DNA from: an uncultured Synergistales bacterium | GTDB taxonomy: Bacteria; Synergistota; Synergistia; Synergistales; Aminobacteriaceae | DNA length: 33,829 bases | Reading direction: 5' to 3' | NCBI GenBank assembly: GCA_905235395.1 | Contig: CAJOLN010000018.1 | Coordinates: 1 to 33,829 of the forward strand | Made by a program: the position numbers and the translations under genes | Notes under the pieces: generated by a model | What the model saw: only the letters and a program-made list of their open reading frames with translations | Told to the model about the DNA's origin: nothing | Database searches by the model: none | Part shown: positions 16,534 through 20,692 of the stretch, in pieces | How the letters are laid out: each line of letters begins with the position of its first letter | Numbering within the stretch: the stretch's first letter is position 1

Positions 16534-16566
16534 TAAATAAATTTTCAGACAGTTACATAAAACAAA

Positions 16567-16591
16567 AGCCCCCCCGCTTTAACGGAAGGCT
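16567..16591 (-). terminator. rho-independent terminator of the surface protein gene
   Basis: Read on the minus strand, AGCCTTCCG pairs with CGGGGGGGCT (two G-U pairs and one bulged G) around a TTAAAG-like loop, followed by TTTTGTTTTA. It sits 17 bases after the stop codon at 16608. The seven-C run on the plus strand is part of this stem. Confidence 0.8.
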
Positions 16592-16607
16592 CAAATTTGA
16601 AATTTCG

Positions 16608-19600
16608 TTATCGTTTCTTCTTCAACAACAGCAATAGAGCAAATACTCCTAAAACTGAAGAGTTACATCCTCCTCCGCCACTGCTTTTTTGTTGCTGATC
16701 TGGTTGCGGTTGTGGCTTAGGTTCAGGCTCAGGCTGTGGTTGAGGTTGTGGTTCGGGACTGGGTGCTGGAGTAGGCTCAGGTTCAGGTTCGGGTTCATCT
16801 GAATCTTCGTATTCGGGGCCAACATCAACACTTATTGCGGCGGTCAATCCATTGAATTCTGCTCTCAGTGTTGTAGTTCCTTCTTTGAGACCTTGTACCA
16901 TGCCTTCGTCATTCACAAACGCAATTTCAGGGTCATCTGCTGTCCATTTGGTGCCGCTTAATGGCGATGATACATCGAACATATTTCCGTCTTCAGTGTT
17001 TGCGAATAATCCGGCTTTGGCAAATGAGTTCACATTCGTGCAAATCATATCTGTTCCGATAAAGTCGAGCCCTATTGTATTTATGCCATTAAGGTTGTAC
17101 ATGCACGCGAGATGAATAATGTCAGATGTGTAAAGTTTCTTATCACCCGCAGAGTAACAGTAAGCTGTCATATATCCCAAATCGCTGCTTGCAAACTCAA
17201 CATTCACTTCAAAATTTCCGCTGCCATCAGAGTACATCGGGAAAATTTTATCAATGCCATCTTTTTGAATCACAAGTTGTACGTCACTGTTCACATTATT
17301 GGACGCTTGGGCAGTAAATTTCACGACGCTCGTCTCAGTGTCAGAAACTATCAGAACGCTTTTATTCACGGTCAATTCGAAATTTGTGATGTAAAAATTT
17401 TTGAGATCAATGTCATCAAAATTTATATCTTCGTAATCAATTGAACTTGCTTTCACTCGTGCATTTTGCGAAGTAACGTTTGGCGATGCAGTGAGTGAAA
17501 CAGAATTTTTCAGTACAGCAAAATCACTCATTGGGGCATTTTTCAGGATATTTACCACAGCATACGCAACATCACCCTGTTGGCACAGCGTCGAGTATCT
17601 GAATCTCCAGTCAGTCCAATTAACGTCATTTCCGTACTCAGGAAAACCTGTTGAATATTCATGTAACCCTGCGACTGCACTGCTCACTGGTACAAATAAA
17701 TCGTGGCCCTGATCCGCGAAAATCAACCTTTGAACTGCGAAAAATAAGTTGAACGTCAATTCAAATGGATTAAGATTTTTATTTGCAAGATCAATAGTTG
17801 AGCTGACGATTTGCAACACACCACTAACCTGAGGATCCTGCGCAACATTTTCGACAAATGAAAATGCAAGACCACGAAGCTCATCATTCAACAATATATC
17901 CTTAAGAATTTCCTCCTGTTGTGAGGCTAATCTCAACAGAATGCGATCGTCTAATGCATTGATAGTTTTCAATAAGTCAAGATCACTTGCGTGCTTAAAG
18001 TTATCCAGAGTATTGAGAGTTTGCACGTAGTCCATATAATCGGTCAATTTTTTGAACTTTGATATCTGAGAGCCTAGTGATTTCAATAGCTTCATGATAT
18101 TAAACACTGCAAATGCGTTATCTTTTATTCCCTCGAAACCATCCAGATAACCTTTCACATCACCGTACACGAAATGCATCGGGACATTCGCTGGCAAAGT
18201 TAGCTTCATGAAATCGCTTCCAACAGCAATCTCTTTCCAAAATGGATCATAGTGAGGGAGTTGGTATCTGTTATGCAAAAACCAGAGGAGAGAGCGTGCG
18301 ATTGGCTCTTTCAATATTGGTTGATCATTCAGCAGGCTGAAGTCTCCAGTTAAAATATTTGCCAGAGGAGTTCCCATGTGAGGCACAGCGATGTTTATAA
18401 ACCTGTGAATCATTCCTTGCTTATACGATTGCGTTGTCCAGTTATTCCCATCTTTGGTTTGTCTACGTTCAGGTGTGTCCTCCAAGAATTTGCGCACAAC
18501 AAGTCCGCCTATTCCATGAGCGATAACGTCCGCTTTTGTGCAAACGATGCCTTCCTGAGCGTAACGATAGAACATTCCGGTTAATGCGTTGAAGAAGTCG
18601 TTAAAATCATTCTCCAAAAGTTTCTGTATCCCTTGTCTGCCGTTATGATCCCATAAAGCAATATGTTCTTTCTTGAAGTCTCTGTTCAGCAGTTCCTGAT
18701 AAATGCCAACGCCGATTTTTTGGTTAAGTCCGAATGTGTGACTCGCGTTTCCTGGATTTACTATACTTGCAAAGAAGCTTGCAAACCCTGATATATTGGT
18801 AAAGCCACCTGGATTTATCATGCCTGGAATTAAAAACACAGGTGCAGCTTCAATCTTCAACTCTATATCACGTTCTTCTTTTGTGCCGTCATCAGCGTAA
18901 AAATTCACATGAACTTTGAATGTGTCAGACGGAAATTGTTTGTTCTCCGGGAAAGTCTCAGGCGCAATCATAACAATTGAAATCTGATGACCTCCCTCTT
19001 CCTCATCAAGAATACCAACCTGAAATGTTCTAACCTGACTCGTTGAATTTATTTCAGAGCGTTGCAGAGTTTCGAGAGTTGCACCTATATCTTTATCGAA
19101 TTGGAAAGTAGCATAGCCAGGTTTATCTGTCTGAACACGCAGAATAAGGCGTGAATTTCCGTCCGCAGTGAAACCAAGTTTGCCGTATGTGCCGTAATTA
19201 TATTGTGCTATGGTTGGTTCTGTGAGTTGATGACCTTGATAGTCGATGTAATAGCTGGAAGTCATATCGCAGATGATGTTATCAGTGCCGAATCCTCCGC
19301 GTTCAAGTGCTTCAACCTTCAGTGTTCCGCCTTCACCTTTTAGAGTAACATTCATGCGTTCCTCATTAGGTGAATGGGTCTGATATTCATAGAAAAGTTC
19401 TGAAGGATATTCTGAAAACAACACGATGCCATTTGAGACATCAAATGAAATTGGAGACATTTCTTCAGAATTTTTTCCGCTCTTTGCCCGTATTGAATCA
19501 GGAACTATATTTTCGAGTTTTGATACATACTCGCTCAAATCAACCTTATAACCCTCAGTTGTTATTTCAGCTTTCATGCCTTCCCTAATTTGAGGAGAGC

Positions 19601-20531
19601 AGACTATACCTGTCAACACCTTATTATTACTAAGGTCAAGTTCTGTAAGATGATTATTCTCGCAATGTAGCTCTATCAACTTTGTGTTTTGTGAGAGGTC
19701 AAGTTCATTAAGCCCCGTGCCAAAGCAGCCAAGTCTCTCCAGATTCGGGCAGGTTCGCAGATTCAGCTTCCTAACATCTCCGTTTTCTGACAGCATCCAT
19801 AATTCTTTCAGGCTTGTACATCCGTCTACGTTCACCCCTTGCAACGCTGGGCTATCACAGCATATATATTCCAAAGCAGCAAGTCCACTAAAGTTAATTG
19901 TCGTAAACTGGTTGTTGCCGCCTGCAAAAAGTTTTAAATTTTTGCAACTGCTTAGGTCTATTTGTGTAAGTGAATCATTGTCACAATAGATCGTCTCAAG
20001 GGATGAGCAACCATTGAGATTCACATACTTTAGGTTGGGACTACTGCCACAGCCAAGCACTGTAAGGCTCGAACATCCTGACGCATTGATACTCTCAAGA
20101 TTAGGGCCGCTGAGGTGAAACTCAGTAAGATTGGAGAAGCCGCTTATATTTACATTTTTGACCATAACGCCCGGACAGTAAACCCTTCTCAGGTTAGTCA
20201 GGTATTCGATCCCTGACAGGTCAGCGAGTCCGCAATACTGTATGCTGATAAAGTCCTTGTGATTAAGCTCGTAGTCGTTCAATACGCCGTCCTTGTATGC
20301 TTCACTCCACTGCCATTCATAGCCCAACACGTTGCCTTCATAATCAGTAACGGGAACTTGTTTCCAGCCGTCAAACCACTCAAGCTGTTGAAGCCATTCA
20401 CGCAGAACAGGATCAGGGAAATGTGCCTCATCAATCGGGACATCAGCAGAAGCAATTGCAGAAAAGGAAAACAGAAGTGCAAAAATCAGCAAAATTACTC
20501 TTGTGGGGGGGGGGCAGACTTTTTTGAACAT
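16608..20531 (-). CDS. giant secreted protein: leucine-rich repeats, alpha/beta-hydrolase-like domain, Big_2, C-terminal sorting tail
   Basis: A 1307-residue exported protein of unknown function. A signal peptide (residues 1-32, ending IASA) follows an odd CPPPT segment encoded by ten C. Residues about 90-315 are irregular leucine-rich repeats with Cys/Asn ladders (LTELDLSNNKVLTGIVC). An uncharacterised beta-rich region follows. About residues 560-930 resemble a lipase-type alpha/beta hydrolase: PVFLIPGM, then VIAHGIGGLVVRKFLED where the family has HSMGG, so the nucleophile serine is glycine (residue 673), and DQGHDLFVPVSSA near the acid position. About residues 1165-1240 look like Big_2. A Pro/Glu/Gln spacer and an SGGGGC-hydrophobic-KKKR tail end it. 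The start at 20531 is supported by AAGGAG 9 bases upstream and a promoter at 20581-20609; the frame stays open to 20630, but that would begin upstream of the promoter. Confidence 0.85.
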   Translation of the reverse strand: MFKKVCPPPTRVILLIFALLFSFSAIASADVPIDEAHFPDPVLREWLQQLEWFDGWKQVPVTDYEGNVLGYEWQWSEAYKDGVLNDYELNHKDFISIQYCGLADLSGIEYLTNLRRVYCPGVMVKNVNISGFSNLTEFHLSGPNLESINASGCSSLTVLGCGSSPNLKYVNLNGCSSLETIYCDNDSLTQIDLSSCKNLKLFAGGNNQFTTINFSGLAALEYICCDSPALQGVNVDGCTSLKELWMLSENGDVRKLNLRTCPNLERLGCFGTGLNELDLSQNTKLIELHCENNHLTELDLSNNKVLTGIVCSPQIREGMKAEITTEGYKVDLSEYVSKLENIVPDSIRAKSGKNSEEMSPISFDVSNGIVLFSEYPSELFYEYQTHSPNEERMNVTLKGEGGTLKVEALERGGFGTDNIICDMTSSYYIDYQGHQLTEPTIAQYNYGTYGKLGFTADGNSRLILRVQTDKPGYATFQFDKDIGATLETLQRSEINSTSQVRTFQVGILDEEEGGHQISIVMIAPETFPENKQFPSDTFKVHVNFYADDGTKEERDIELKIEAAPVFLIPGMINPGGFTNISGFASFFASIVNPGNASHTFGLNQKIGVGIYQELLNRDFKKEHIALWDHNGRQGIQKLLENDFNDFFNALTGMFYRYAQEGIVCTKADVIAHGIGGLVVRKFLEDTPERRQTKDGNNWTTQSYKQGMIHRFINIAVPHMGTPLANILTGDFSLLNDQPILKEPIARSLLWFLHNRYQLPHYDPFWKEIAVGSDFMKLTLPANVPMHFVYGDVKGYLDGFEGIKDNAFAVFNIMKLLKSLGSQISKFKKLTDYMDYVQTLNTLDNFKHASDLDLLKTINALDDRILLRLASQQEEILKDILLNDELRGLAFSFVENVAQDPQVSGVLQIVSSTIDLANKNLNPFELTFNLFFAVQRLIFADQGHDLFVPVSSAVAGLHEYSTGFPEYGNDVNWTDWRFRYSTLCQQGDVAYAVVNILKNAPMSDFAVLKNSVSLTASPNVTSQNARVKASSIDYEDINFDDIDLKNFYITNFELTVNKSVLIVSDTETSVVKFTAQASNNVNSDVQLVIQKDGIDKIFPMYSDGSGNFEVNVEFASSDLGYMTAYCYSAGDKKLYTSDIIHLACMYNLNGINTIGLDFIGTDMICTNVNSFAKAGLFANTEDGNMFDVSSPLSGTKWTADDPEIAFVNDEGMVQGLKEGTTTLRAEFNGLTAAISVDVGPEYEDSDEPEPEPEPTPAPSPEPQPQPQPEPEPKPQPQPDQQQKSSGGGGCNSSVLGVFALLLLLKKKR
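16611..16685 (-). other. Synergistetes-type C-terminal sorting signal (coding segment)
   Basis: The last 25 residues have the tripartite layout of C-terminal sorting domains: a glycine-rich motif with a single cysteine (SSGGGGCNSS, Cys 1289), eleven hydrophobic residues, then KKKR. This resembles the Synerg-CTERM class, which by analogy with MYXO-CTERM would be cut near the Gly-Cys motif by an intramembrane protease and leave the protein on the outer surface. No processing enzyme is encoded in this window. Confidence 0.7.
16686..16805 (-). repeat. low-complexity Pro-Glu-Gln spacer repeat
   Basis: Degenerate six-base units encoding EP, QP, TP, AP and SP dipeptides for about 40 residues. This is a wall- or membrane-spanning type linker that holds the folded domains away from the anchor. 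Its repetitive DNA may vary in length between strains. Confidence 0.75.
20505..20514. repeat. ten-base G/C homopolymer, possible phase-variation tract
   Basis: Ten consecutive C on the coding strand form codons 6 (last base) to 9 of the surface protein. At ten C the frame stays open. At nine C the next codons read CCA CAA GAG TAA, a stop at codon 12. At eleven C the frame reaches TGA about 30 codons from the start. It is the longest single-base G or C run seen in this AT-rich window. Confidence 0.7.
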
Positions 20532-20580
20532 ATCATACAACTCCTTTAGGATAATTTGAGAAGATTTTTGAAGTATTTTA

Positions 20581-20609
20581 ATTTTACACATTGAAGCTAT
20601 TTTTACCAA
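20581..20609 (-). promoter_or_regulatory. promoter of the surface protein gene
   Basis: On the minus strand TTGGTA (20604-20609) and TAAAAT (20581-20586) are 17 bases apart. A transcript from here would start near 20574 and have a leader of about 43 bases before the ATG at 20531. This argues against the longer reading frame that begins at 20630. Confidence 0.6.
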
Positions 20610-20692
20610 GAACAAAATTTTCTTCATCACAAAAAGCTCTCACAGTTGAAAGAGTTTGAAGCCCTGAATCAAAAAGGATATTGCGCGGCGTG

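Follow-up and report, generated by a model that had tools for sequence, protein, structure and literature searches.

Most of what is known of gene switching by homopolymer tracts comes from a small number of lineages, and many of these are mucosal pathogens. In the phasomes of Campylobacter, Helicobacter and Neisseria, runs of about 9-12 G or C within surface genes turn expression ON or OFF by frame shifting, and further tracts lie in promoter spacers and at the 3′ ends of genes. The titles and abstracts of the open-access papers we searched gave us no description of phase variation in Synergistetes, Synergistota or Synergistaceae. The stretch of DNA analysed here (33,829 nucleotides, referred to as the window) is contig 18 of a draft genome (1.98 Mb, 97.9% complete) of an uncultured Synergistales bacterium from the ruminant gut. 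It carries a run of ten C near the start of a large surface-protein gene, which we regard with good confidence as a simple-sequence contingency locus, that is, a phase-variation tract. Judged from its sequence, the source genome very probably contains about 28 slip-prone on/off switches, this run among them.

On the forward strand, positions 20505-20514 read G10, so the minus-strand ORF reads C10. As the sequence-only reading had claimed, the tract falls within codons 6-9 of a 1307-residue protein, counted from the ATG at 20531. The elements around this start are as follows.

20505-20514, minus strand: poly-C tract, C10 in the coding sense, codons 6-9 (read from the sequence)
20529-20531, minus strand: start codon ATG2, in frame at C7, C10 and C13, 9 nt after AAAGGAG (sequence and frame table)
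20534-20536, minus strand: start codon ATG1, in frame at C8 and C11, only 4 nt after AAAGGAG (sequence and frame table)
20541-20547, minus strand: Shine-Dalgarno-like AAAGGAG (read from the sequence)

At C10 the 1307-codon frame is open, confirming that the assembled phase is ON, and a table of frames for tract lengths C7 to C13 bears out the stops given earlier: from the ATG at 20531, translation would end at codon 12 (TAA) with nine C and after 29 codons with eleven, where about 30 had been stated. Gain or loss of one unit is predicted from the sequence to change the frame of the gene. Because a second ATG, ATG1, lies 5 nt upstream of ATG2 in a different frame (ATGATATG) and is in frame at C8 and C11, the tract is potentially a three-state switch, and the two spacings from AAAGGAG make ON, weak and OFF states likely, in a ranking that we infer. 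At C10, and also at C7 and C13, translation from the well-placed ATG2 would give the ON state; at C11 and C8 only ATG1 would be used, with poor Shine-Dalgarno spacing and probably low expression; and C9 and C12, which allow read-through from neither ATG in the frame table, would be OFF. The changes in length would arise by slipped-strand mispairing in replication, which would add or remove C's and so shift the frame of this accessory LRR/lipase-like surface protein.

The gene itself and its surroundings comprise the following features.

16608-20531, minus strand: gene for the 1307-aa surface protein (profile and structure matches plus inspection)
20445-20531, minus strand: signal peptide MFKKVCPPPTRVILLIFALLFSFSAIASA (by inspection, not by a signal-peptide program)
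16555-20677, no strand assigned: insertion of accessory DNA, with the gene inside it, between guaB and tadA (comparison with relatives)
16570-16589, minus strand: terminator-like hairpin after the gene, overlapping a C7 run at 16569-16575 (two such hairpins found versus 3.3 expected in shuffles)

The target is a surface protein, as in described contingency loci, and similar gene classes are found at the other tracts. The protein consists, in order, of a signal peptide, leucine-rich repeats, a lipase-like region, an Ig-like and Pro/Glu-rich spacer and a tail. Its repeat region best resembles internalin J (PDB 3bz5, E 2e-20); the leucine-rich repeats are shared with internalin-type proteins, but the lipase-like domain that follows them is not. 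The tail (GGGGCNSS, a hydrophobic segment, then KKKR) resembles the Synerg-CTERM sorting signal, although at 16.9 bits it scores below the curated cut-off of 22.5 bits for TIGR04564. The LCAT/lipase match, at residues 642-832, is weak. Lipases usually carry a GxSxG motif; this protein has VIAHGIGG at that place, and the lipase-like region may therefore be catalytically inactive.

The gene is absent, and its site empty, in four relatives; guaB and tadA are adjacent in the reindeer, red-deer and goat MAGs. In the reindeer MAG, whose DNA is 90% identical over the matched flank on the tadA side, 16 bp stand in place of the 4.1-kb stretch at 16555-20677. A search of the ends of this insert for direct or inverted repeats of at least 8 nt found none, and a search of genome contigs with the 1307-aa protein for other strains gave no relative. 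The run is missing from homologues of the protein elsewhere in the genus, whose signal peptides are of the ordinary kind (MWKQIRIFLAVLLALSVVSGLSACAYG in G056, for example). By this sequence comparison, the tract is a gain of the source lineage rather than ancestral, since homologues in other species lack it. The sequence-only reading had counted homologues without the run as grounds for rejecting a switch; such homologues do exist, but their lack of a run reflects recent gain of the tract here and does not refute phase variation.

That reading had also described the genome as otherwise poor in G/C runs, which is true only of the window: the source genome contains 28 G/C tracts of 9-12. In a sample of about 0.5 Mb containing all 28, there are two runs of 7 and two of 8, and a first-order Markov model predicts 4.3, 0.6, 0.2 and 0.0 runs of length 7, 8, 9 and 10, respectively. 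Twelve control stretches (240 kb) have no run of at least 8. By both measures the C10 tract exceeds chance length, and the excess at lengths 9-12 strengthens the contingency reading. Nearly all of the 28 tracts lie in or beside surface-glycan genes, and the tract genes are strikingly alike in function; their Pfam matches include UDP-sugar dehydrogenase, epimerases, glycosyltransferases, FkbM and other methyltransferases, pyruvyl transferase, WbqC, ATP-grasp, asparagine synthase, RmlC, GtrII and PglD-like proteins, among others; one tract has a type II secretion F gene on one side and a pilin-like gene on the other. Of the tracts that fall inside a coding frame or close to its start, about 10 are assembled ON (that of the window included) versus 8 OFF, and a pair of neighbouring genes, not a single frameshifted one, may account for some of the OFF cases (L018, L032).

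Some tracts are placed to act otherwise than at the start of a reading frame. Poly-C runs occupy the -35/-10 spacers of two promoter-like sequences of the form TTGACT-19/20 nt-TATAAT (19 nt with C9 at L022:8164-8172 and 20 nt with C11 at L024:2027-2037), upstream of genes for a PglD-like acetyltransferase and a Sel1/SH3 protein; these are candidate promoter-spacing switches, in which a change in tract length would alter the spacing. Tandem ATP-grasp genes carry tracts at their 3′ ends (L016:9423 and L016:10727), the second of which is kept in G029 (L162:1500; G9 versus G11). This placement suggests C-terminal switching, for which the C-terminal sequence switching described for Helicobacter canadensis offers a comparison (PMC2823697). 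Tracts also sit at junctions between two enzyme frames (L018:9911, IspD/epimerase; L019:4896, RmlC/epimerase; L032:2934, RraA/ATP-grasp; L025:4020, ATP-grasp/next ORF), where tract length may decide between fused and separate proteins.

Related genomes differ in the length of such tracts. The UDP-sugar dehydrogenase tract is G12 in the source genome versus G9 in the reindeer MAG, within surroundings that are 92.5% identical, and in one GT2 family the run at the same position is G7, 9, 9, 9, 12, 13, 14 and 16 in eight species. Five of these GT2 tracts are in frame and three out of frame, with coding sequence conserved on both sides; that the sequence past an OFF tract is intact speaks for a recent and reversible change and against decay. 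These between-genome differences are seen at other tracts of the set, the 1307-aa locus being absent from close relatives. In G029, tandem paralogues (L112:1447 and 2772) have the same flanking motif and G12 at the same position, and the tracts were therefore duplicated along with the genes. Species of the genus differ also in number: some have roughly 20-55 long tracts and others almost none, with G026, G027, G029 and G042 among the tract-rich species and G046, G056 and G057 among the tract-poor.

The flanks of the tracts, compared with the G run oriented on the top strand, share a motif, of which the window has one copy:

20486-20501, plus strand: TCAGCAAAATTACTCT, a copy of the flanking motif associated with tracts, preceding the G run on the G strand at a distance of 3 nt (motif scores)

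With a leave-one-out profile of 34 flanking bases, tracts of the source genome average +7.7 bits and control G4-G6 runs -12.9 bits; the window tract, at 14.6 bits, exceeds all 679 controls. We then trained the motif on the 128 foreign tracts with sufficient flank, from a genus collection of 157 that includes the source genome's own, holding the source genome out. The resulting motif, T[AC][CA]GTAAWT..[AC]C..A, usually lies 0-5 nt before the G run and can be summarised as TNMGTAAWT...TAC or, with its further positions, TNMGTAAWT...TACNNA. In the held-out source genome, scores above 2 bits were obtained for 16 of 28 tracts versus 8 of 678 controls (AUC 0.86, p = 5e-11). The window tract scores 4.0 bits with this foreign-trained model, and four of the 678 control sites exceed 4.

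Sites with the motif and no tract occur at chance frequency (145 seen versus 137 expected), and we therefore rejected the idea that it is a general genomic word. A simple pattern (GTAAW, then 4-16 nt, then G9), with its reverse as control, gave about 530 overlapping hits versus 60 in 43 genomes of the genus, and about 41 versus 32 in the other 140 genomes of the order. On these counts, the motif is linked to G tracts and, within the order, is almost restricted to the source genus. It adjoins tracts in coding, promoter and intergenic positions, and the coding strand may carry either the G run (114 tracts) or the C run (21), which together point to a role or origin at the DNA level. Paralogy as the source of the shared flanks was rejected, the tract genes being unrelated. 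A hairpin reading fared no better: at the main dyad centre no base pair covaried positively (z = -3.6), which argues against a mere hairpin, and two off-centre registers gave z of 3.1 and 4.4. The exact tract-flank pattern was sought in viral contigs, and none was found.

Loss of mismatch repair was likewise rejected as a general explanation for the tracts, because the source genome and almost every genome of the genus have MutS_I. Long G/C runs are few in most genera that have MutS. In three genomes of another genus of the family (G009, G010 and G011, genus g4), MutS_I gave no match and very long G/C runs are numerous, some above 25; g4 is possibly a case of mismatch-repair loss, separate from the source genus.

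Could the tracts reflect something other than switching? Homopolymer lengths can be wrong in assemblies of this kind, the source genome being a fragmented draft, and one rival reading takes the tracts as artefacts of draft metagenome-type assembly or of sequencing, with poly-G produced by the chemistry or with miscounted homopolymers. A few contigs do stop at a G tract or only a few bases from one (L033:3145-3152; L154:1579, the end of G029:C42; L175:1486, the end of G027:C32), and these look as if variable tract length broke the assembly. Artefact is nevertheless a very remote explanation in our judgement: the tracts recur at orthologous positions with conserved flanks in independently assembled genomes, they are concentrated in one functional class, and the motif is not seen in the family's other genera. 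It is improbable, too, that the CPPPT encoded here is merely tolerated in the signal peptide with no switching at all. The tract-encoded residues do lie in a region of low constraint, and homologues have ordinary signal peptides, but neutral drift would not be expected to yield 28 tracts with bimodal lengths and a bias to surface genes, and the flanks of the window tract match the tract-associated motif. The phase-variable switch proposed earlier is well, though indirectly, supported by the excess and bimodality of lengths, the surface genes, the presence of both ON and OFF copies, the orthologous length differences and the promoter-spacer tracts; what does not stand is its picture as an isolated single run, since it is one of 28. 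The purpose of such a set, mostly in surface-glycan genes and in part in promoter spacers, would be surface variation against phage, host or competitors. This main reading places the window tract in a genus-wide repertoire of phase-variable genes with a common flanking motif.

How the tracts arose is a separate matter. We put forward tentatively, at rather less than even chances, that a dedicated process, one that recognises TNMGTAAWT...TACNNA or carries it, makes or spreads the poly-G switches of the genus, which would then be programmed and not chance expansions. One form of this, which we hold to be possible but doubtful, is that the tracts are copies of a small poly-G element flanked by inverted repeats and inserting into genes, often in frame, the window tract being an eroded copy. 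Near-identical stretches of 32-38 bp, ACAAAATACGTAACT-G9-CAAAATTACG, occur in three unrelated genes (BLAST E about 2e-6), at least 22 of 34 flank positions are common to 17 of 378 tract pairs versus 11 of 200000 control pairs, the motif without a tract is no commoner than chance, and the UDP-sugar dehydrogenase seems about 10 codons longer at its tract, judged by the usual family pattern. Such near-identical copies at non-homologous sites concern a subset of tracts only, however; in GT2, copies with the tract exceed paralogues without it by only about 4 codons, which is the G run alone; neither a transposase nor a target-site duplication came to light in the sequences compared; and the motif is degenerate, with 12 of the 28 own tracts below 2 bits. 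The same GT2 comparison, with neighbouring bases changed in place, speaks for a recognition site: a protein acting there, whether a dedicated enzyme or a factor of replication or repair, would create adjacent G tracts or make them unstable. A motif that is sequence-specific, mostly 0-5 nt away from tracts, be these coding, in promoters or intergenic, free of pair covariation at its symmetric centre and nearly confined to one genus would suit such a site; its degeneracy, its absence beside some tracts and the lack of a candidate protein count against it, and we consider this form unlikely. Both forms are compatible with phase variation, and the inserted element would in addition explain where the tracts came from.

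Some 28 tracts in an uncultured ruminant Synergistaceae genus would extend homopolymer phase variation to a phylum for which we found no report. The shared motif makes it testable how new homopolymer switches arise in new genes: if it is functional, any place where the motif appears may give rise to a switch, and there would be a case for a hitherto unrecognised mechanism by which switches are made or spread; if it is the footprint of insertion, the element should be identifiable from empty versus filled sites. In the abstracts we retrieved there was no precedent for a flanking motif around poly-G/C contingency tracts.

Among known systems, Haemophilus lic-type loci have several start codons that overlap in different frames, which allows more than two states of expression. 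The locus described here is alike in its multiple ATGs, but those loci have tetranucleotide repeats where this one has a mononucleotide tract, and the expression states here are predicted. Rickettsia palindromic elements and other small palindromic repeats or MITEs are short and in some cases located inside protein-coding genes (entry points: PMC3733652, PMC10969869); the sequences described here differ in carrying poly-G and in showing neither a terminal inverted repeat with target duplication nor a transposase. The closest likeness is to the poly-G/C contingency loci of Campylobacter, Helicobacter and Neisseria: by analogy, the C10 tract appears to work as they do, in a different phylum and with a shared flanking motif that is a feature of the source genus.
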